Assembly (NCBI GenBank): GCA_003164075.1
Contig: PLRZ01000608.1
Coordinates: forward strand, 1,222 to 12,320
DNA: 11,099 nt
Direction: 5' to 3'
From: Bryobacterales bacterium
Lineage (GTDB): Bacteria > Acidobacteriota > Terriglobia > Bryobacterales > Bryobacteraceae
Notes under the pieces: generated by a model
Database searches by the model: none
Seen by the model: the letters and a program-made list of their open reading frames with translations, nothing else
Told to the model about the DNA's origin: nothing
Shown here: positions 1,782 to 11,030 of the stretch, in pieces
Layout of the letters: each line of letters starts with the position of its first letter
Position numbering within the stretch: the first letter of the stretch is position 1
Translations under genes and position numbers: made by a program

Positions 1782-1834
1782 TCAGAACTCCTGATGTCGT
1801 GGAATTTGCAGTGAGCCCGCAGGTGGGGTAGTCA
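1782..1834. repeat. Dispersed intergenic repeat at a rearrangement junction
   Basis: Bases 1782-1798 are an exact inverted match (17/17) to 7687-7703. Bases 1787-1806 match 11031-11050 in direct orientation at 18 of 20 positions, and similarity continues with gaps into a GGTGGGG-rich stretch. Bases 1818-1828 (CGCAGGTGGGG) also equal 10951-10961. The segment lies exactly where a permease fragment (minus strand) and a 5'-truncated ATPase (plus strand) both lose their homology. It looks like a mobile or recombinogenic repeat at the junction. The family is not identified. Confidence 0.6.
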
Positions 1835-2486
1835 GAACAAATACCTCGACTTGCGGCAATACGGCATAGGGCCTGTCGAAATCCGCCTCTCAATCTTCGA
1901 TCGTGAGCCACAGATCCTCGCCCTTGGCGTAACCGACAAGAAGGGCCTGAAAGACTACCTCGACAGCGTCGGCGGCATCCGTGTTTATCGTGACGGAATT
2001 CGGGTCTACAACTACGGCGAACCCGGCGATGACTGGCTTGGCCTGGGAGGAAGACGCGTCAACACCCCCACGGGCCGGATCAGCAACAATTTGGTGATCG
2101 GTGCGGTGTCGCTCGATCTCACACAGAGTCGTGACCTCGTTGAAAAGACCAACCGCGAAGGTTTCGTTGACAATCAGGCGTTTTCGCTCTTTCGGGAGGC
2201 GGTCCTGCGGGCGATCGAGCAGATCGAGGCCGAGCGCAACCAGGACAAGGCACGAATCAGACAGGCCTACTCGAAGGGCAGGTTCCGGGAGCCAGTGCTT
2301 GCGGACCTGACCGCGGTGCGCGAAGTGGTCGAGCGAAAGCACCTGAAAGAATTGACTCCGTTCCTTGATCGTATTGAAACGGACTTCACCGCGATCCGCG
2401 ACCGTTTTCTGACCTCAGCCAGCGCCGGATTGAGCCTGACTATTGTGATCCATGAGGGTGGAGAAAGGGATCACAAATCTTGTTAA
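1815..2486 (+). pseudogene. GHKL ATPase/histidine kinase, N-terminal part (5'-truncated and frameshifted)
   Basis: This is the middle portion of a large ATP-binding protein. The frame is open from 1815, and the first possible start is a TTG at 1851 with no ribosome binding site. From KYLDLRQYG (about 1839) onward it reads like proteins that carry an N-terminal Hsp90/MutL-like GHKL domain. The region visible here, with GGIRVYRDGIRVYNYGEPGD, WLGLGGRRVN and RISNNLVIGAVSLD, would be its post-ATPase transducer part. The ATP-binding motifs themselves are absent, so the 5' end is lost. A long charged helix follows (about 2200-2420), ending in SLTIVIHE, which resembles a histidine-kinase H-box with His201 (codon 2451-2453). 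One base later the frame fails: an extra G in the GGG at 2456-2458 sends it to a stop at 2486. Removing that G joins HE to VEKGITNLV in the next frame. Confidence 0.65.
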
Positions 2487-3084
2487 GGCGGCCGACGAGT
2501 ACGGCGCCGCGCCACAGGTGGTATCGATGGCCAGGCACCTGGCGGAACTCGTCGAAGGGCTTGGCGCACTGGCGCGACGGTCTGGTGATTCACGCGAGCA
2601 GGCCACGTCTCTCGTGCGAGCGCCATTGTTCAACACCGAACTTCGCCTGCAGGCCCACGGCGTCACGGTGACGCGGAAACTCACAGCCGACTTCGAGGCC
2701 AAGTGCAGCAAGCGTCTTCTCGTGGCTACCATCATGAACCTCATCGACAACTCCATCTGGTGGCTCGACAACAAATGGGGACCGAAGAACAAGTCAGGCG
2801 AGAAGAAGCTCTACATCGGAACGAGCCGCGATTTCGCGGAGGGCCCGGCTATCGTGGTCGCGGACAATGGTCCCGGATTCAATGATCCGCCAGAGTACTT
2901 GGTCGAGCCGTTTATGAGCCGCAAGCCGGATGGTATGGGGCTCGGGCTTCACTTGGCCGACCAAGTTATGAAGGTTCAAGGTGGCAAGTTGCTGTTCCCG
3001 GAGCGGGACGACGTCACACTGCCGGCCGAATTCGACGGTGCAGTGGTCGCCCTCGTGTTTGGAGGTGCGAAGTGGCTGGCCTGA
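2452..3084 (+). CDS. Histidine-kinase-like catalytic (HATPase_c) domain, C-terminal part of the split gene
   Basis: 210 residues if started at the ATG at 2452. The C-terminal ~130 residues form a complete GHKL catalytic domain: N-box N96-L-I-D-N100, G1 box D138-NGPGF-143, an F-box-like EPFMSRKPDG, and G2 box G161-M-GLGL-166. The region before it (residues 4-50) is helical and fits the second half of a DHp-type dimerisation domain. This is therefore the ATP-binding half of a kinase whose phosphoacceptor His lies in the preceding, differently framed piece. The ATG at 2452 overlaps that piece by 35 bases and has no Shine-Dalgarno sequence, so it is more likely the out-of-frame rest of one gene than a designed start. 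The stop overlaps the next gene by 13 bases, showing tight translational coupling to the receiver protein. Confidence 0.7.
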   Translation: MRVEKGITNLVKAADEYGAAPQVVSMARHLAELVEGLGALARRSGDSREQATSLVRAPLFNTELRLQAHGVTVTRKLTADFEAKCSKRLLVATIMNLIDNSIWWLDNKWGPKNKSGEKKLYIGTSRDFAEGPAIVVADNGPGFNDPPEYLVEPFMSRKPDGMGLGLHLADQVMKVQGGKLLFPERDDVTLPAEFDGAVVALVFGGAKWLA

Positions 3085-4415
3085 ATGGTGTCCGGGTCGT
3101 TATCATCGACGATGTCGAATCCGAAATCCTCGATTTGGTCCGGGGCTTATGGAGAATAGGCGCCGCGCCTCTTTACATCGATCCGGCCACCCTGGAGCGC
3201 GAAGATGCGTGCAAACCGCTGTCCGGGATTCGCGTTGCATTCCTGGATATGGACATTGTTGGTGCTGGGGCAGACGCGAAGTCGAAAGTCGCAGCTCTCG
3301 CGAATTGTATTCGACGTGTCATCAGCAAAGACAACGGTCCTTACGTCGCGGTGGCATTTACGAAGCACCCGGAGCTGGTTGAAGATCTCGACAGCTATGT
3401 TTTTCGTAACGCGGAAATCGCTCGTCCCTATGCTTTCGTGACCATCGGCAAAGAAGAATGCCAAGACATTTCTGCCCTGTCCGCGCGAATCGACGAGGAA
3501 CTCCAAAAGCGCGGACCGGTGCGGATGCTTCAAACATGGGAGGCTGCGTCGACAGACGCTGGTAGCGAGGTTGTGGGCGAGCTTGCCTCAATCGCGTCTG
3601 GTTCGGAGGCTGAGCCCGCAAAGTGGCGGGAGGCGTGGGGCAAAGCGATGCTCCGGATCATGCATAGCTGTGGAAAGGAATCTGTTGGCGACAGCGGCAT
3701 GTCCTCTGGCCCAGCGGCCTTCAAGGCGTTCTGCCATTCGATGATCCCACTCCACGGCGACAAGCTCGAGGGACGTGTGGCGGTGCCGTATCCCGATCTT
3801 GATGAAACCACCAAGGAACTCCTTGTGGATGATTCCAGGGCAGATTGCGGGATTGAGGCGAAGGCGCGGATCAATTCGATGTTGCACTGTTCTTTCGATG
3901 ACCTCCAGGCAAGCCGGCCCGGAAGTGTCTATTCCCTGAGATCTCAAAGTCTGGCTCCGTTGTTTCCGGACGTCGCGACCATGATCAAGTCCCTGGTCGA
4001 CAGGGACAAGAAAACGGCCGACGCAGACTTCCTGAAACAGGTAGAGGAAGCTGCGAAGCATGTGTTTCCAATTGCGGTTGAGACAAGCCCTGCGTGTGAT
4101 CACGTGCAGGGCAATCTGATCGTGGCTCGGCTTACGGCTGGCTGCCTTGTGCCCGTCGATGCCGCGAAAAAGAGGCTCAAGTACAAGCTGCCGCCCCAGT
4201 CAGTCTGGAAGCTGGCCCCGGTCTGGCTTTCCGTTGACGGTGGTGACTTGGCCGCCTACGCACTTCTCGTCAACTGCCTCCTTGTCAGCAGCTGCGCCTT
4301 GGGTGTGCTTCAGAAGGAGACGGCGATGTTCCGCATTCGGAGCCAAGCATTTGCTACGTTGCAGGTCTGTTTCGGCAGCCATGCCGCACGGCCTGGAATG
4401 CTCCTCTTGCGATAG
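3072..4415 (+). CDS. Response-regulator-like protein with large unknown C-terminal domain
   Basis: 447 residues. I chose the GTG start because a strong GGAGG (3061-3065) lies six bases upstream and the gene overlaps the kinase stop, as coupled two-component pairs often do. Residues 7-115 look like a receiver domain: VRVVIIDD with the acidic pair D13-D14, a helix, then GIRVAFLDMD with D59 as the probable phosphoacceptor, and VAVAFTKHPE with T98 in the position of the conserved Thr/Ser. The usual later Lys is not clear, so phosphorylation is inferred. Residues ~150-447 show no DNA-binding output domain that I recognise; the end (RSQAFATLQV to HAARPG) looks conserved in type. It sits between a histidine-kinase-like ATPase and a Vsr endonuclease and probably links the two. 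Third-position GC is visibly lower than in the downstream metabolic genes, consistent with transfer. Confidence 0.65.
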   Translation: MAGLNGVRVVIIDDVESEILDLVRGLWRIGAAPLYIDPATLEREDACKPLSGIRVAFLDMDIVGAGADAKSKVAALANCIRRVISKDNGPYVAVAFTKHPELVEDLDSYVFRNAEIARPYAFVTIGKEECQDISALSARIDEELQKRGPVRMLQTWEAASTDAGSEVVGELASIASGSEAEPAKWREAWGKAMLRIMHSCGKESVGDSGMSSGPAAFKAFCHSMIPLHGDKLEGRVAVPYPDLDETTKELLVDDSRADCGIEAKARINSMLHCSFDDLQASRPGSVYSLRSQSLAPLFPDVATMIKSLVDRDKKTADADFLKQVEEAAKHVFPIAVETSPACDHVQGNLIVARLTAGCLVPVDAAKKRLKYKLPPQSVWKLAPVWLSVDGGDLAAYALLVNCLLVSSCALGVLQKETAMFRIRSQAFATLQVCFGSHAARPGMLLLR

Positions 4416-4422
4416 TGAATTT

Positions 4423-4845
4423 ATGGACGTCTTCTCGAGCGGCAAGCGATCTGAGGTGATGTCCAAGATACGGGGGAAAGGGAACCGCTCGACGGAACGG
4501 CGGATGGCCGCGATGTTGCGAGCCAGGGCGATCTCCGGGTGGCAAATGCATCGGAGGGACATACCGGGCACGCCGGATTTCTATTTCCAGGAGCTCCATC
4601 TCGCGCTATTCATCGACGGGTGCTTCTGGCACCAGTGCCCCAAGTGTTCTAAGATGCCGACTCAGAATCGCACGTTCTGGAACGAGAAGTTGACCAAGAA
4701 CATTCGACGCGATAGACGAATTCGACGCATGCTCAATCGGAGCGGTATCCGTGTGATCCGATTGTGGGAGCACGACCTGGAGCACCAGACTATGCGCTGT
4801 AGATGCGTGCTGGATAGAATCGAGTCGCTGCTGCTGACAGTCTGA
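4423..4845 (+). CDS. vsr: Very short patch repair (Vsr-type) endonuclease
   Basis: 140 residues, the usual length for Vsr. In E. coli this enzyme nicks next to T:G mismatches left by deamination of 5-methylcytosine. Visible family landmarks: the start MDVFSSGKRSEVMSKIRGKG, Glu25 in STERRM, catalytic Asp52 in the PGTPDF motif, G66-C67-F68-W69-H70 with H70 in the active site, a zinc-binding set C67/C72/C75 with probably H117 of WEHDL as fourth ligand, and the helix W86-N-E-K-x3-N-x3-D97. Asp65 replaces E. coli His64, a change I recall in many homologues. The ATG at 4423 fits the family N-terminus and lies seven bases after the receiver-protein stop; an in-frame ATG at 4381 would add a poorly conserved 14-residue extension. 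No cytosine methyltransferase is visible in the window, so the enzyme may serve the adjoining signalling module rather than mismatch repair. Confidence 0.88.
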   Translation: MDVFSSGKRSEVMSKIRGKGNRSTERRMAAMLRARAISGWQMHRRDIPGTPDFYFQELHLALFIDGCFWHQCPKCSKMPTQNRTFWNEKLTKNIRRDRRIRRMLNRSGIRVIRLWEHDLEHQTMRCRCVLDRIESLLLTV

Positions 4846-5220: not shown

Positions 5221-6600
5221 ATGAAACACGAATTCCTTCTCCTCCTTCTTTTCGCCGCCATCGCCACCGCGCAGACGCCGCGCACCATGCGCGTCGACTA
5301 CGTCCACACCGGCGCCGCTTCCGAGGAATACTTCGCCCTGGACGCCATCGTCCTGGAAGGCGCCTGGCCGGGGCCGCTGGACCGCTGGATCGACGAATCC
5401 AACCTCGGCCGCTACTACTTTCAGGTGCTCGACCGCTCGACCAATCGCCTGCTCTACTCGCGCGGCTTCGCCAGCATCTTCGGCGAGTGGGAAACCACCG
5501 ACGAGGCCAAACAACAACGCCGCGCCTTTCACGAAAGCGTCCGCTTCCCCGCACCCGCGGCGCCCGTCCAGGTGGTCCTCAAGAAACGCGGGCCCAATAA
5601 CGAATTCCGCGAAGTCTGGTCCACCGTGGTCGATCCGGCGGACCCCGCCATCGACCGCAGCGCCGCGCCCAAGCTCAACGTCTGGGCCGTGATCGAGAAC
5701 GGCCCCCCGCGCGATAAGGTCGACCTGCTGCTGCTCGGCGATGGCTATACCGCCGCCGAAATGGACAAGTGGCATCGCGACGCCCGCCGCACCGCCGACA
5801 CCCTCTTCGCCGTCTCGCCCTTCAAGGAACACCGCGCCGATTTCAACGTCTGGGCCATCGACACGCCGGCCGAGGAGAGCGGCGTCTCGCGCCCCTCCGA
5901 TGGCGTCTATCGCCGCTCCCCCCTCGGTGCCGCTTACGATGCCTTCGGCTCGGAGCGCTATGTGCTCACCTTCGACAACCGGCGCCTGCGCGAGATCGCC
6001 TCGGCCGCGCCGTATGAGTTCATCGAAATCGTGGTCAACGACCGCAAGTACGGCGGCGGCGGCATTTTCAATCTGTTCGCCACCGTCTCGGCCGACAACG
6101 CCTTCACGCCCTACGTTTTCGTCCACGAATTCGGGCACCATTTCGCCGGCTTGGCCGACGAGTATTACACGTCCGACGTCTCTTACGGCAGCACTACCGA
6201 GCGGCCCGAGCCCTGGGAGCCCAATGCCACGGCCGACCGCACCGCCGCCAAGTGGAAGGAACTGCTGAGCGGCGGAGTCCCGCTGCCTTCGCCCTGGCCC
6301 AAGCAGGAATTCGAGCAGATGCAGCAGGAGATCCAGAGCCGACGCCATGAGATCCGCGCCGCACACCGTCCCGAAGAGGAAATGGAAGCCCTGTTTCGCG
6401 AGGAGCGCGCCCGCGACACCAAACTGCTCGCGTCCGGCCCCAACGCGGGCAAAGTGGGGGCCTTCGAGGGCGCCATGTACGAGGGCCGCGGCTATTACCG
6501 TCCGCAACAGGATTGCATCATGTTTACGCGCGATGAGACCGGCTTTTGCGCGGTGTGCCGGCGGGCCATCGAACGGGTGATCCGCATGTACGCAAAATAA
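5221..6600 (+). CDS. Secreted M64-family (IgA peptidase-like) metallopeptidase
   Basis: 459 residues. A signal peptide (residues 1-17, hydrophobic core LLLLLF, probable cleavage ATA-Q) indicates export. The first ~135 mature residues, starting RTMRVDYVHTG, match the usual N-terminal beta-domain of M64 proteins. The catalytic domain begins around NGPPRDKVDLLLLGDGYT. Zinc-binding H302-E303-F304-G305-H306 is followed by FAGLADEYY, where D313 is the likely third ligand and E303 the catalytic base. A Cys cluster near the end (DCIM, CAVC) may form a disulphide or structural site. Length and order agree with the family. M64 was named for a clostridial IgA protease, but soil bacteria carry many copies and the substrate here is unknown; general extracellular protein digestion is more likely. 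The start lacks an obvious ribosome binding site. Codon third positions are strongly GC, unlike the preceding module. Confidence 0.88.
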   Translation: MKHEFLLLLLFAAIATAQTPRTMRVDYVHTGAASEEYFALDAIVLEGAWPGPLDRWIDESNLGRYYFQVLDRSTNRLLYSRGFASIFGEWETTDEAKQQRRAFHESVRFPAPAAPVQVVLKKRGPNNEFREVWSTVVDPADPAIDRSAAPKLNVWAVIENGPPRDKVDLLLLGDGYTAAEMDKWHRDARRTADTLFAVSPFKEHRADFNVWAIDTPAEESGVSRPSDGVYRRSPLGAAYDAFGSERYVLTFDNRRLREIASAAPYEFIEIVVNDRKYGGGGIFNLFATVSADNAFTPYVFVHEFGHHFAGLADEYYTSDVSYGSTTERPEPWEPNATADRTAAKWKELLSGGVPLPSPWPKQEFEQMQQEIQSRRHEIRAAHRPEEEMEALFREERARDTKLLASGPNAGKVGAFEGAMYEGRGYYRPQQDCIMFTRDETGFCAVCRRAIERVIRMYAK

Positions 6601-6700
6601 GGGCGGGCTCCAACCCTTCGGTTATCATTCTCTCCACTAACCTTTTGGGAATGTCAAATTCTTACTGGAACCCATACCATAGATACGAAGTGGAGCAGCT

Positions 6701-7441
6701 ATGGAACTAATCGTGACCCTCCTGGCGTCGATAGGCGGAGCCCTCATTGGGACCTCCGTCGGCATCTTTCTGCTGTATCGCAAACTTCGCCCCATCACCG
6801 GTGCTGAACTGGACCTGACAAGAGGGAAACTGCGTTCTACCGAGTTCTCTCTGTCCTCTATGACGGCCAACCTGGAGAACCTCCGGAAGCAGTTGGCGGA
6901 GCGCGAGCGGCAGCTTTCCGCGGCCGAGGAAAAAGTCCGCCTGGCCGAAGCCGAGACCGCCAATCTCCGTCTGCAAGTGGGCGACCAGGAGACCAAGGTG
7001 CAGGATGCTACCAGGTCGGTAGCTGAAACGGCCAGCCGGCAGCTCGCTTCCTACGAATCCCAGATCGACGCCGACGACCGCCAGCTCCAGGAACTCAACG
7101 GGCAGGTGGCTCGCCTGACCGCCGAGTCGAATCGACTCAGGAGCGACCTCGACGAGGAGACGAAGATCCGGATGACTTTGGAGACCCAGCTCAGCGCCGA
7201 GCACGAGCACTCCCGGTCTCTGGCCAGCCGGATTGCCGAAATGGAATCCGAAAGATCCCACTTCGACCTCACCCTCCAGGAAGAGCGCCAATCCGCCGCC
7301 AAGGGCATCGAGCTGTTATTGATGGCGCAGGAGAACCTCAGGCGCGTGTTCCGGCCGGTCCAACCCGAGCTTGCCGGTGGTGACGACGGCGACAGCAACG
7401 GCCATGTTTTGGTGGGCGTCGCCGCCTCCCCGGACGCTTAG
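6701..7441 (+). CDS. Membrane-anchored coiled-coil protein
   Basis: 246 residues. One N-terminal membrane helix (about residues 3-26, with a Gly-rich ASIGGALIGTSVG stretch) is followed by RKLRP, so the long remainder most likely faces the cytoplasm. Residues ~36-215 are almost entirely charged and helical with Leu/Ala/Glu/Arg heptad spacing (for example LRKQLAERERQLSAAEEKV), typical of a long coiled coil. The tail is short and Gly/Asp-rich. The ATG has GGAG five bases upstream. The layout resembles RmuC/YhcB-like or chemoreceptor-like scaffolds, but no enzymatic domain is present and I do not assign a family. It stands alone, 100 bases after the peptidase gene and before a long repeat-filled gap. 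Confidence 0.75.
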   Translation: MELIVTLLASIGGALIGTSVGIFLLYRKLRPITGAELDLTRGKLRSTEFSLSSMTANLENLRKQLAERERQLSAAEEKVRLAEAETANLRLQVGDQETKVQDATRSVAETASRQLASYESQIDADDRQLQELNGQVARLTAESNRLRSDLDEETKIRMTLETQLSAEHEHSRSLASRIAEMESERSHFDLTLQEERQSAAKGIELLLMAQENLRRVFRPVQPELAGGDDGDSNGHVLVGVAASPDA

Positions 7442-7484
7442 GATTATCACTACGTCACAAAGTGTGGGGATGGGCTGAAGTCTT

Positions 7485-7534
7485 GGCCTCTGCCTCCTCT
7501 GTGCTCTCAAAATCACCAGAACCGGGGCCGCGCC
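7485..7534. repeat. Intergenic repeat, copy A (direct repeat with 7736-7785)
   Basis: A 50-base unit beginning GGCCTCTG and ending CCGCGCC, with TCAAAATCACCAG at its centre. It matches 7736-7785 in the same orientation at 44 of 50 positions by hand alignment, 251 bases apart. It is CT-rich at the start and GC-rich at the end. Confidence 0.75.
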
Positions 7535-7595
7535 CTGTTCCCCCCAGCTTAGACTCATCTCGACCCTCTTCGCGAGCGGCATTCACCGTCCCGGA

Positions 7596-7617
7596 GCGCC
7601 GAGAAGAGTCTCGGCGC
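7596..7617. repeat. Palindromic REP-like hairpin
   Basis: Perfect 9-bp arms, GCGCCGAGA and TCTCGGCGC, around a 4-base AGAG loop. Just to the right, GCAGA at 7618-7622 and a nearby TCTGC form a second weaker pair. On the minus strand the element translates to VAQTLVSAAPRLFSALR, a string I recall as a recurrent spurious peptide in acidobacterial genomes, which suggests a high-copy intergenic element. Confidence 0.6.
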
Positions 7618-7686
7618 CGCAGAAACGAGTGTCTGCGCCACGTCATGGCTCGGGTCAATTTTCCCAACTATCCGAAATCCCCGGCC

Positions 7687-7703
7687 GACATCAGGAGTTC
7701 TGA
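7687..7703. repeat. 17-base copy of the junction repeat
   Basis: GACATCAGGAGTTCTGA here is the exact reverse complement of 1782-1798, which lies at the permease/ATPase junction. Related sequence is found at 11031-11050. Confidence 0.65.
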
Positions 7704-7735
7704 GCTTGATGTGCCGGCTTCCCCCAAACCTCTGT

Positions 7736-7785
7736 GGCCTCTGTATCCTCTGTGCCCTCAAAATCACCAGGACCGGCACCGCGCC
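7736..7785. repeat. Intergenic repeat, copy B
   Basis: The second copy of the 50-base unit described at 7485-7534, same orientation, 44 of 50 identical by hand alignment. The differences are scattered substitutions without gaps, indicating an old duplication or two independent insertions of a high-copy element. Confidence 0.75.
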
Positions 7786-7819
7786 GCAATGTCACCGGAC
7801 GACCTTTGTAGTTTCTTGG

Positions 7820-7852
7820 TTCTTCTCTGTGTCTCTGTGTCTCCGTGGTGAA
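7820..7852. repeat. CTCTGTGT-rich dispersed repeat
   Basis: Two tandem CTCTGTGT units are followed by CTCCGTGGTGAA. Read on the minus strand this gives the peptide FTTETQRHREEP, which I recall as a frequent spurious translation in many unrelated environmental bacteria. It is therefore best seen as a widespread intergenic repeat of unknown origin and not as coding sequence. Confidence 0.6.
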
Positions 7853-7894
7853 TAATGTTTTCCTCTCAGAACACTCCACCTCTCAAAATGGGTG

Positions 7895-7923
7895 TTGTAG
7901 ACCTGCTAATCTGGAATTATAAT
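7895..7923 (+). promoter_or_regulatory. Sigma-70-like promoter of the oxidoreductase operon
   Basis: A TTGTAG -35 box (7895-7900, four of six consensus bases) and a perfect TATAAT -10 box (7918-7923) are separated by the ideal 17 bases. Transcription would begin near 7930, giving a leader of about 53 bases before the ferredoxin start at 7983. The site is AT-rich against a GC-rich background. Confidence 0.65.
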
Positions 7924-7982
7924 AACAGTGGGTGGAGCAAGCACCAACTTTAGGTGGGTCTATCCGCTCGGGAGGCATCGAA

Positions 7983-8249
7983 ATGTCGCCAAACGCCAAG
8001 CCTGACCGCGGTTCCGTCGAAATGAACGCCGAGGAATGCAAGGGTTGCGGCCTTTGCGTGGAGGCCTGCCCTCCCAAGGTGCTCCGCCTTGCCGAGGCAT
8101 TGAATCGCTACGGCTACCACCCTGCCATCTACCTTGGCCATGGCTGCACCGGCTGCGGTATCTGCTACTTCGCCTGTCCCGAACCGGGCGGTATTCAGGT
8201 ACGGCGCCGGGCCGCGTCGACAGTCGCCGAAATGGCGGGCGTGGTCTAG
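7983..8249 (+). CDS. 2-oxoacid:ferredoxin oxidoreductase, delta (ferredoxin-like) subunit
   Basis: 88 residues. It is the electron-transfer subunit of a multi-subunit 2-oxoacid:ferredoxin oxidoreductase, passing electrons from the thiamine-diphosphate site to free ferredoxin. Two complete CxxCxxCxxxCP motifs are visible, C19/C22/C25/C29 and C55/C58/C61/C65, so it should hold two 4Fe-4S clusters. I chose the ATG at 7983 because GGAGG lies seven bases upstream; an earlier in-frame ATG at 7932 would begin almost at the predicted transcription start. It is the first gene of a three-gene operon, and its stop is 15 bases before the alpha-subunit start. The order delta-alpha-beta is common for Kor/Vor operons. 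Confidence 0.88.
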
Positions 8250-8264
8250 AGCAAGGAGATGCCC

Positions 8265-9335
8265 ATGAAACCAGAACTCACCAAGGGTAACGAAGCCATT
8301 GTCAAGGCTGCCGTCCTGGCGGGGTGCCGCGCTTATTATGGATACCCCATCACTCCGGCCAGCGAAATCGCCGAGGCGGCCGCGCTCTACCTGCCGCGAG
8401 TGGGTGGCGTCTTCATCCAGGCGGAAAGCGAAACTGCCTCCGTCAACATGCTGTACGGCGGCGCATCCGCCGGCGTGCGCTGCCTGTCCGGCTCCAGCGG
8501 GCCGGGCATCAGCCTGATGCAGGAGGGGATGAGCTACCTGGCCGGCGCGGAACTGCCCTGCGTCATCGCCGACATCATGCGCGGCGGCCCCGGGCTCGGC
8601 AATATCGCCCCCGAGCAGGGCGACTACAACCAGATCGTCAAGGGCGGCGGGCACGGCAATTACCGCACTCTGGTGCTGGCGCCGGCCTCCGTGCAGGAAA
8701 TGGCCGACTTCACCGCTCTGGCCTTCGACCTCGCCGACCAATACCGCAATCCCGTGGTGGTCCTGACCGACGGCAATATCGGCCAGATGATGGAGCCGGT
8801 CCGCTTCGCCGATCCCATCGAAGTCCCCGCGCCGCCGGCGTGGGCCGTTCTCGGCACCGCCGCCACCCGTCCCAACCTGATCGCTTCCATCTTCCTCGAG
8901 CCCGAAAAGATGGAGCGCCACGTGCGCAAGCTGGAAGCCAAGTACCACGACGCCGAACTCCACGCCGTGCGTTCGGAAAGCTACCGCACCGGCGATGCCG
9001 AAATCGTCGTTATCGGGTATGGCATCGTGGGCCGTATTCTGAAGGCCGTGGTCGATCTCGGCCGCCAGCGCGGGCACAAAATCGGCCTGCTCCGCCCGCT
9101 CACGCTGTATCCATTCCCCGTGGAAGCGATACGCCGGCTGGCCCCACAGGTCAAGGGTTTCCTGGTGGCCGAACTCAGCGTCGGCCAGTTGGTGGACGAT
9201 GTCCGCCTGGCGCTCGAAGGCCGCAAGCCGGTGGAGTTCTTCAGCCGCGTCGGCGGCGTGGTGCCCACCGCCGAGGAAGTATTGGAAGCGCTGGAACGGA
9301 AGTTCGCACTGCAGGAGGTCCTGGTCCATGGCTAG
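8265..9335 (+). CDS. vorB: 2-oxoacid:ferredoxin oxidoreductase, alpha subunit (VorB/KorA-like)
   Basis: 356 residues. This subunit carries the pyrimidine-side thiamine-diphosphate domain and substrate pocket of an enzyme that turns a 2-oxoacid plus CoA into acyl-CoA, CO2 and reduced ferredoxin, or the reverse. Family marks: [15 protein letters not shown] at the N-terminus, Y-GYPITP (residues 25-31), QAESE with E54/E56, [23 protein letters not shown] in two adjoining blocks, RGGPGLGN, and a domain-II strand [10 protein letters not shown] near the C-terminus. It is closest in feel to proteins annotated as 3-methyl-2-oxobutanoate dehydrogenase VorB, but branched-chain and 2-oxoglutarate substrates cannot be separated by eye. 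The ATG at 8265 is preferred over 8259 because AAGGAG (8253-8258) is six bases upstream of 8265 and would abut 8259. Its end overlaps the next gene by eight bases. Confidence 0.88.
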
Positions 9336-10788
9336 CCTCACCGTCACCCACGAGAAAGCTTCGGTTTTTTATGACCAGTTCGCCCGCAAAGGCGAGCTGC
9401 GGCACCAGACGCACTACTGCCCCGGATGCGGCCACGGCATCACCCACAAGTTGCTGGCCCAGGCGCTTGACGACCTCGGTCTACAGGACCGCACCGTACT
9501 GGTCAGCCCGGTGGGCTGCTCGGTGTTCGCTTATTACTATTTCGACGTCGGCAACATCCAGGCGGCCCACGGACGCGCGCCCGCCGTGGCGACGGCCGTC
9601 AAGCGCAGCCGGCCGGATAGCATCGTGATCGGCTACCAGGGCGATGGCGACCTGGCCGCCATCGGTACCGCGGAAATCATTCACGCGGCCAACCGCGGCG
9701 AGCCCATTACCATCATCTTCGTCAATAACGGAATCTACGGCATGACCGGCGGCCAGATGGCCCCCACCACGCCGCTCGGCAAGAAGACCACCACCACGCC
9801 GCTCGGCCGGAACGCCATGACCGAGGGCTATCCGCTGCACGTCTGCGAACTGCTGAATACCCTGGAAGCGCCGGTCTATATCGAACGCGTTTCGCTGGGA
9901 TCCACCAAGCACATCATGGCCGCCGCCAAGGTGATCCGCCGCGCGGTGGAGAATCAGGTCAAAGGCCTGGGATTTTCCTTCGTGGAAGTGCTCTCGCCCT
10001 GCCCCACCATCTGGAAATTCGAGCCCGTGGACGCCCAGCGCTTCGTGCGCGAGGAGATGGCCAAGGTCTTCCCCGTGGCCAACTTCCGCGACCGCACGCG
10101 GGATGCCACGGCGCGCCCTGCCGCTCCCCCACCGCCCGCCATCGCGGAGATTCCCGCGCTGCTGGGCCTGGTTGCCGAGGACGACGGTGCGCTACGCCCT
10201 CGTCCGGAGCGGCCCCTCGACCTTCGCATGCGGGTGGCCGGTTTCGGCGGGCAAGGCGTGCTCACCCTCGGTTATGTGCTGGCCGAGGCCGGGATGGAGG
10301 CCGGCTACGAGGTTTCCTGGCTACCCTCTTACGGTCCCGAGATGCGCTCCGGGACGTCGAACTGCCATGTGCGCTTGTCGAACGAACCGATTTCGTCGCC
10401 CCTGGTCTCGCGTCCCAACGTCCTGCTGGCTCTCAATGAGCCGTCCCTCCGCAAGTTCCTCCCCGACGTGGAGCCCGGAGGCATCGTGCTCTACAATAGC
10501 GATACCCTGCCGGCGGACTGCATGCGCAGCGATCTCCGCATCGTCGCCAGGCACTTTTCCGGCTTGGCCGACAAGCTCGGCGACCCGAAAGTGGGCAATG
10601 TGGTCATGCTGGGGGCGCTTCTGGAAGCCACCGGTCTGCTGGAGCCGGAACAGATCGTCAGCGCCCTGCGTGCCCTGGTCAAGAACAAGAAATACCTGGA
10701 TCTGGATCTGCTCGCGCTCCAGTTGGGGCAGGACGAGGTCCGCAAAGAGCCACTGCCGGTTTGCGACGACGACCTTTGGGGCGTGTAG
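9328..10788 (+). CDS. 2-oxoacid:ferredoxin oxidoreductase, fused beta-gamma subunit
   Basis: 486 residues. Two subunits that are usually separate are joined here. Residues 1-~250 are the beta subunit, which binds the diphosphate of thiamine diphosphate: HYCPGCGHG with C31/C34, [11 protein letters not shown], the metal-binding G105-D-G-D108 and [12 protein letters not shown], ending around SPCPTIW. A Pro/Ala-rich linker (about 270-290) leads to the gamma subunit (~299-486), marked by [10 protein letters not shown] (G305-F-GGQG-310), [15 protein letters not shown] and [16 protein letters not shown]. The ATG at 9328 overlaps the alpha-gene stop (ATGGCTAG) and has AGGAGG nine bases upstream, so translation is coupled. 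With the delta and alpha genes it completes all four functional parts. Beta-gamma fusions are known for this enzyme class. The missing cluster-binding domain is supplied by the delta subunit. Confidence 0.88.
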
Positions 10789-10950: not shown

Positions 10951-10989
10951 CGCAGGTGGGGCAGGCGAGCACCGCCTGCCCCACCTGCG
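10951..10989. repeat. Perfect 17-bp inverted repeat (REP-like), possible terminator
   Basis: The left arm CGCAGGTGGGGCAGGCG (10951-10967) is perfectly complementary to the right arm at 10973-10989, with a 5-base AGCAC loop. The stem is very stable. No T-run follows, so it is more like a REP-type intergenic palindrome than a classical terminator, but it could protect or end the oxidoreductase transcript. The first 11 bases recur at 1818-1828. Confidence 0.75.
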
Positions 10990-11030
10990 GGCACCCAATC
11001 CCAAGATCGGTCACGCACCCCAGCCCCTGG

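Follow-up and report, generated by a model that had tools for sequence, protein, structure and literature searches.

The window analysed here, 11,099 nucleotides of a Bryobacterales bacterium (GenBank assembly GCA_003164075.1, contig PLRZ01000608.1, positions 1,222 to 12,320 of the forward strand), carries in a row the genes for a histidine-kinase-like ATPase, a receiver-like protein and a Vsr DNA mismatch endonuclease. This trio is probably the damaged 3' portion of a four-gene operon consisting of a C5-cytosine methylase, a hybrid MORC/histidine-kinase ATPase, a receiver protein and Vsr, and the copy in the window is broken. That judgement covers membership in a known system together with the broken state, and the phosphorelay step that an intact operon might carry out is graded separately below. 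The ATPase-receiver-Vsr arrangement is real and already published. In the portion of Bellieny-Rabelo et al. 2021 (PMC8011034) drawn on here, HEF_HK / Response_reg_2 is a two-component-like system linked to restriction-modification (R-M) genes, the receiver-like and kinase-like genes are linked at a distance of up to three genes in 91.6% of 644 regions, upstream C5 methylases are frequent, and Vsr is found in 20 genera, mostly directly downstream of the receiver-like gene. The Pfam names of the system turned up in 2 papers, and no newer account of the combination was found among the literature matches listed.

The operon in the window

The surviving parts are listed below in window coordinates. 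L001, the main comparison, is a locus in a metagenome-assembled genome of Candidatus Solibacter (genome G001), and dN/dS is the ratio of nonsynonymous to synonymous substitution rates.

1815..1831, no strand: breakpoint repeat, marking the left edge of what remains of the operon; 94% inverted copy at 10976-10992, direct match of 14 bases at 10951-10964; homology to L001 begins at 1831
1831..2486, plus strand: ATPase gene fragment 1, with the remaining S5-type domain and linker helices, through the H-box His (2451-2453); dN/dS 0.021 against L001
2484-2486, plus strand: stop codon ending ATPase fragment 1, after the frameshift; frame open from 1815
2452..3084, plus strand: ATPase fragment 2, in a different frame, covering what is left of the two-helix region plus a histidine-kinase ATP-binding domain at the C-terminus (N, G1 and G2 boxes); PF02518 31.5 bits (cut-off 26.4); dN/dS 0.032 against L001
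3072..4415, plus strand: receiver-like protein of 447 amino acids (aa), with a receiver domain at about residues 1-147 (3072-3512), a helical middle and a C-terminal part with an invariant Cys-Asp (SPACDH, 4086-4103)
4423..4845, plus strand: Vsr DNA mismatch endonuclease, open frame; TIGR00632 105.5 bits (cut-off 97.85), PF03852 61.1 bits, match to the E. coli Vsr structures 1cw0/1vsr/1odg

The first-pass annotation of this DNA, made from the letters alone, had described most of these parts, and they are where it placed them. The ATPase motifs are encoded at 2451-2456 (HE), 2737-2751 (NLIDN, N box), 2863-2880 (DNGPGF, G1) and 2932-2949 (GMGLGL, G2), and the receiver motifs at 3102-3113 (D13-D14 in IIDD) and 3240-3254 (D59 inside FLDMD). 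By its model score and its match to E. coli Vsr, the third gene is assigned to Vsr. The ATPase and receiver genes overlap by 13 bases (3072-3084), and the receiver and Vsr genes are separated by 7 bases (4416-4422) if Vsr starts at the ATG at 4423, as it does in the related locus L035. The annotation's histidine-kinase-like ATPase holds up as to motifs and kinase core but not as an intact gene, since the N-terminal ATPase domain is absent and the frame changes near 2452-2486.

Conservation of the gene neighbourhood

Profile searches found the receiver in 5 (profile A1) and 6 (A4) of 396 genomes in the phylum of G001 and in 3 of 257 genomes in its order, eight genomes in total, of which G125 is a weak match (24.6 bits) and G140 is damaged. 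A1 comprises 22 of the 25 matches of its search, A4 (26 rows) and A7 (32 rows) were chosen from matches plus loci, and A8 comprises 45 of the 120 matches listed, of 6763. In all eight genomes the ATPase adjoins the receiver (G140 has just the second half of the ATPase); seven have a C5 methylase no more than 10 kb from the receiver, and four have Vsr within 5 kb of it (for Vsr, P ~3e-10 under uniform placement). Kinase-like and receiver-like genes are therefore adjacent and near R-M genes, of which the window itself retains only Vsr.

A survey of 21 loci besides the window gave an ATPase in every one and a receiver match in 13. L035 and L015 have the same gene order as the window, and L013 has it with one intervening open reading frame, so the trio is not adjacent only here. 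The closest complete copy is L035, with the C5 methylase at 6117-7172, the ATPase at 7159-9261, the receiver at 9249-10583 and Vsr from 10603; its ATPase-receiver overlap is again 13 bases. The ATPase-receiver pair is found together in distant genomes, often near C5 methylases. The ATPase was also found in 98 plasmid records (40 listed, 16 regions opened), at least seven of them at 40-42% identity over 99% of the query, and a separate receiver search returned seven records, the same ones. Annotation of four of those seven places Vsr and a C5 methylase in three, and neither in the stretch of the fourth. A scan of genome contigs with A1 matched 109 stretches, among them one relative (L001), and the same scan of viral contigs matched 60 stretches, none of them a relative; one of three phage records was opened. 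An unverified, phage-labelled faecal scaffold (L022, MT838277.1) bears a C5 methylase, an ATPase and a receiver. In a single metagenomic case (P0141), a 912-aa protein, the rear of a C5 methylase continues in frame into the ATPase.

Domains of the ATPase and the receiver protein

The intact 700-aa ATPase of L001 matches PF13589 (60.5 bits) and PF02518 (51.7 bits), the first of these being the domain absent from the window copy. It joins HATPase_c_3 to HATPase_c through a His-bearing two-helix region. All 46 alignment rows keep the H-box His, which is H491 in L001, and the two helices are predicted at residues 486-506 and 511-532, partly at a predicted local distance difference test (pLDDT) score below 50.

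The 447-residue protein was suspected from the letters to be receiver-like, and fold prediction bears this out: the receiver fold comes with an Asp-Asp pair, an acceptor Asp, a Thr/Ser and a Lys. D59 is conserved in all 26 rows of A4 and in 31 of the 32 of A7 (the remaining row is a gap), and K127 in every row of both (26/26 and 32/32). A Foldseek search with the whole protein returned PorX and other response regulators as best rows at low TM-scores (0.17-0.22 by query), and the receiver fold is therefore claimed for the receiver part only. These predictions support a histidine-kinase core beside a receiver fold.

In the C-terminal part, the Cys-Asp of SPACDH is invariant in all 26 rows of A4, all 32 of A7 and all six of A9. 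This part has no Pfam match (the best E among seven C-terminal pieces was 0.0087, to a coiled-coil model, in L010), and PADLOC models matched the receiver proteins at chance level (best E 0.43). The fold search barely tested this part, and a viral PemK-like row (E 0.18) was not relied on.

Several observations weigh against placing the window in the published system. In eight of the 21 loci surveyed the ATPase comes without a receiver-profile match, and A6, a three-sequence profile of the downstream proteins of receiver-less loci, does not match the receiver profile (hhalign: A4 against A5 88.3%, A4 against A6 2.6%, A6 against A5 4.0%). The ATPase structure model is moderate (pLDDT 72.5) and low around the H-box. 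One of the eight genomes, G001, has no C5-methylase or Vsr match and has an Mza operon instead. The cut-offs of PF19191 and PF19192 were passed by none of the proteins tested (window proteins, the 22 members of A1, L001 and other loci), the best PF19191 score, among distant kinases, being 23.6 bits against a cut-off of 24.1. None of 99 genomes and none of 10 records had PF19192, but no control genome exceeded the cut-off either, so this silence says little. On the other side, the ATPase aligns at E 5e-37 with a kinase, that of L050, which falls 0.5 bit short of the HEF_HK cut-off, and partners of L050-like kinases are recognised by the receiver profile at E 2.4e-12 over 359 columns. The window clade is thus outside PF19191/PF19192 by the strict Pfam test and, by sequence homology, inside the wider group.

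Cys-Asp is found in L019 and L023 and is missing from L026. L018 and L020 have ATPase relatives followed by a protein of about 227 aa and a metallo-beta-lactamase-fold hydrolase in place of the receiver, perhaps another system.

The broken copy

The closest relatives of the window trio fall in the order of Candidatus Solibacter, which we take to be Bryobacterales. Nucleotide similarity between the window and L001 is 80% over 1831-4415 and starts abruptly at 1831. About 283 codons of the L001 gene lie ahead of that breakpoint; the window ATPase therefore lacks the first GHKL domain along with some of the S5-type domain. The frame then shifts near 2452-2486, after the H-box His. What remains of the gene is well preserved: protein identity to L001 is 95.6% for the first ATPase piece and 94.3% for the second, and comparison with L001 shows strong purifying selection on both, with dN/dS values below that of the receiver (0.097). 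Against L035, dN/dS was 0.082 for the second ATPase piece, and the other three comparisons were saturated. Because both fragments show this selection, the break is recent or technical.

It is quite possible, although we lean somewhat away from it, that the damage is technical, the contig having been mis-joined at the 1815-1831 repeat and the frameshift being a sequencing error, so that the true genome holds an intact operon. The selection on both ATPase fragments speaks for this, as do a homology that begins exactly where a repeat recurring in the window ends and a minus-strand FtsX-like fragment to the left of the breakpoint (1499-1762; PF02687 19.1 bits, below the cut-off) that seems severed at the same junction. 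However, repeats are natural recombination sites too, very recent decay would give equal dN/dS, and the relative G140 is damaged as well, with a stop in the receiver and half an ATPase. A technical origin would touch the broken state only and is compatible with membership of the trio in the four-gene operon. As it stands, lacking the clamp domain and the methylase and with its ATPase frame broken, the window copy should not work as a relay, while the receiver and Vsr frames are still open.

The surroundings of the trio contain further repeats and genes. The sequence at 1782-1799, just before the breakpoint repeat, is perfectly inverted at 7686-7703, the repeat at 10951-10989 is a perfect 17-base hairpin, and a pair of 51-base repeats within 7484-7785 is 88% alike and spaced 251 bases apart. 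The exact repeat cores (11 and 12 bases) occurred in none of the 49 loci searched. Directly behind Vsr, a protein of 92 aa encoded at 4853-5131 matches the BrnA antitoxin below threshold (18.7 bits against a cut-off of 26.1). It is followed by an M64 metallopeptidase (5221-6600) whose identity to proteins from the order of G001 reaches 85%, with matches in 37 of 257 genomes, and at 8259-10788 by 2-oxoacid:ferredoxin oxidoreductase-like genes, one protein of which joins thiamine pyrophosphate-binding and POR (gamma-type) domains. In an empty-site comparison, seven same-order contigs with the M64 peptidase found downstream yielded one match to the tested window genes apart from the peptidase itself (FtsX-like, L045), and for that reason no insertion boundary can be drawn.

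Vsr and the methylase

Among the 21 other loci, 12 have a C5-methylase match and 8 a Vsr match, and a methylase is present in all eight Vsr loci (Fisher p 0.0046, with loci that are non-independent and flanks that are unequal). Seven or eight of the genes surveyed had gone into the Vsr and C5-methylase profiles, so their matches there hold by construction; L022, L035, L036 and L037, and for the methylase L012, were absent from the profile builds that found them. Pfam models applied to the eight genomes gave a similar picture, with seven of eight Vsr genes within 4.3 kb of a C5 methylase; the contig of the Vsr of G648:C125 has no methylase. Four of these eight Vsr genes lie less than 2 kb from a receiver, and three of the other four lie within 2.8 kb of a methylase. 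Because the presence of Vsr follows the C5 methylase in both loci and genomes, Vsr is best read as the companion of the methylase and not of the relay. The window Vsr is the only one of nine in the locus survey without a methylase in view, and this fits loss of the left half of the operon.

That the MORC/MutL-like ATPase serves Vsr as a MutL-type matchmaker during mismatch repair, with tuning by the receiver, is improbable: 13 of the 21 other loci, every one of them ATPase-bearing, lack a Vsr match in the stretch retrieved, and three of the four receiver-distant Vsr genes sit beside C5 methylases. That the phosphorelay activates Vsr as a nickase against phage, as the first-pass annotation had suggested, is very unlikely: Vsr does lie directly behind the receiver gene in the window, L035 and L015, but those same 13 loci, the Vsr loci that all carry a methylase and the methylase-proximal Vsr genes of the genomes speak against relay control.

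How an intact copy might work

In an intact operon, the methylase would mark host DNA and Vsr, its usual companion, would repair T:G mismatches arising from deaminated 5-methylcytosine. The ATPase may close its MORC/MutL-like clamp in response to the state of the DNA, autophosphorylate at the H-box His (H491 in L001) and hand the phosphate on to the receiver at D59. This His-to-Asp step by itself is conceivable but doubtful. The receiver output would then come from the C-terminal part with its Cys-Asp, which could switch a partner such as a restriction or Mza-type defence effector. Taken as a whole, a phosphorelay on a MORC-type DNA clamp, in which the clamp reads DNA, the histidine-kinase core signals the receiver and the Cys-Asp part acts as the switch or enzyme that arms a coupled R-M or Mza module, is a tentative proposal that we hold to be rather unlikely. 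If it were true, ATPase and receiver together would serve as a plug-in regulator of DNA-methylation-linked immunity, and Vsr would accompany the methylase. The predicted structures, a MORC/MutL-like module with a histidine-kinase core and a receiver with a Cys-Asp part, give a basis for asking if methylation-linked defence uses two-component signalling.

Comparison with known systems

The Dcm-Vsr pair performs very short patch repair. Relatives of the window trio share with it a classical-family Vsr beside a C5 methylase; in the window, by contrast, the methylase is missing.

HEF_HK / Response_reg_2, in the portion of PMC8011034 used here, likewise pairs a protein made of HATPase_c_3, His-bearing helices and HATPase_c with a receiver-like partner for which no output domain is known, often with a C5 methylase upstream and with Vsr, if present, mostly directly downstream of the receiver gene. 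Unlike that system, the window clade fails PF19191 and PF19192, and the window copy is frameshifted and lacks the HATPase_c_3 domain and the methylase. The paraMORC GHKL ATPases of R-M operons (Iyer et al. 2008, PMC2292703, as far as the portion consulted goes) share the N-terminal GHKL and S5 module and operons with methylases and Vsr-type nucleases. The window-type ATPase differs in adding a C-terminal histidine-kinase core and a separate receiver partner, and the word "receiver" occurs 0 times in the main text of that paper as retrieved.

The Mza system is related by position. At L009:2-12512, in G001, MzaA (cut by the contig start), MzaB, MzaC, MzaD and MzaE are followed about 500 bases behind, on the same strand, by the kinase-like ATPase and the receiver, and MzaB there is also a GHKL protein. 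The G001 genome has no Vsr or C5-methylase match. The ATPase and receiver match no Mza model, and PADLOC models MzaA-E match none of the operon proteins of the window. The MzaA-matching protein of L009 bears sigma-70 regions 1.2, 2 and 3. L016, L017 and L019 have MzaB-like proteins close to the ATPase, and L019 has an MzaC-like one as well. Among the literature matches listed, PMC9523054 and PMC10924106 contain Mza names. Mza was reportedly described by Gao et al. in 2020.

This study extends a computationally described system to a clade missed by its Pfam models, argues that Vsr goes with the methylase and not with the relay, and ties the ATPase-receiver pair to an Mza operon in one genome. 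The Mza neighbourhoods suggest that the regulatory pair is coupled to differing DNA-targeting modules.
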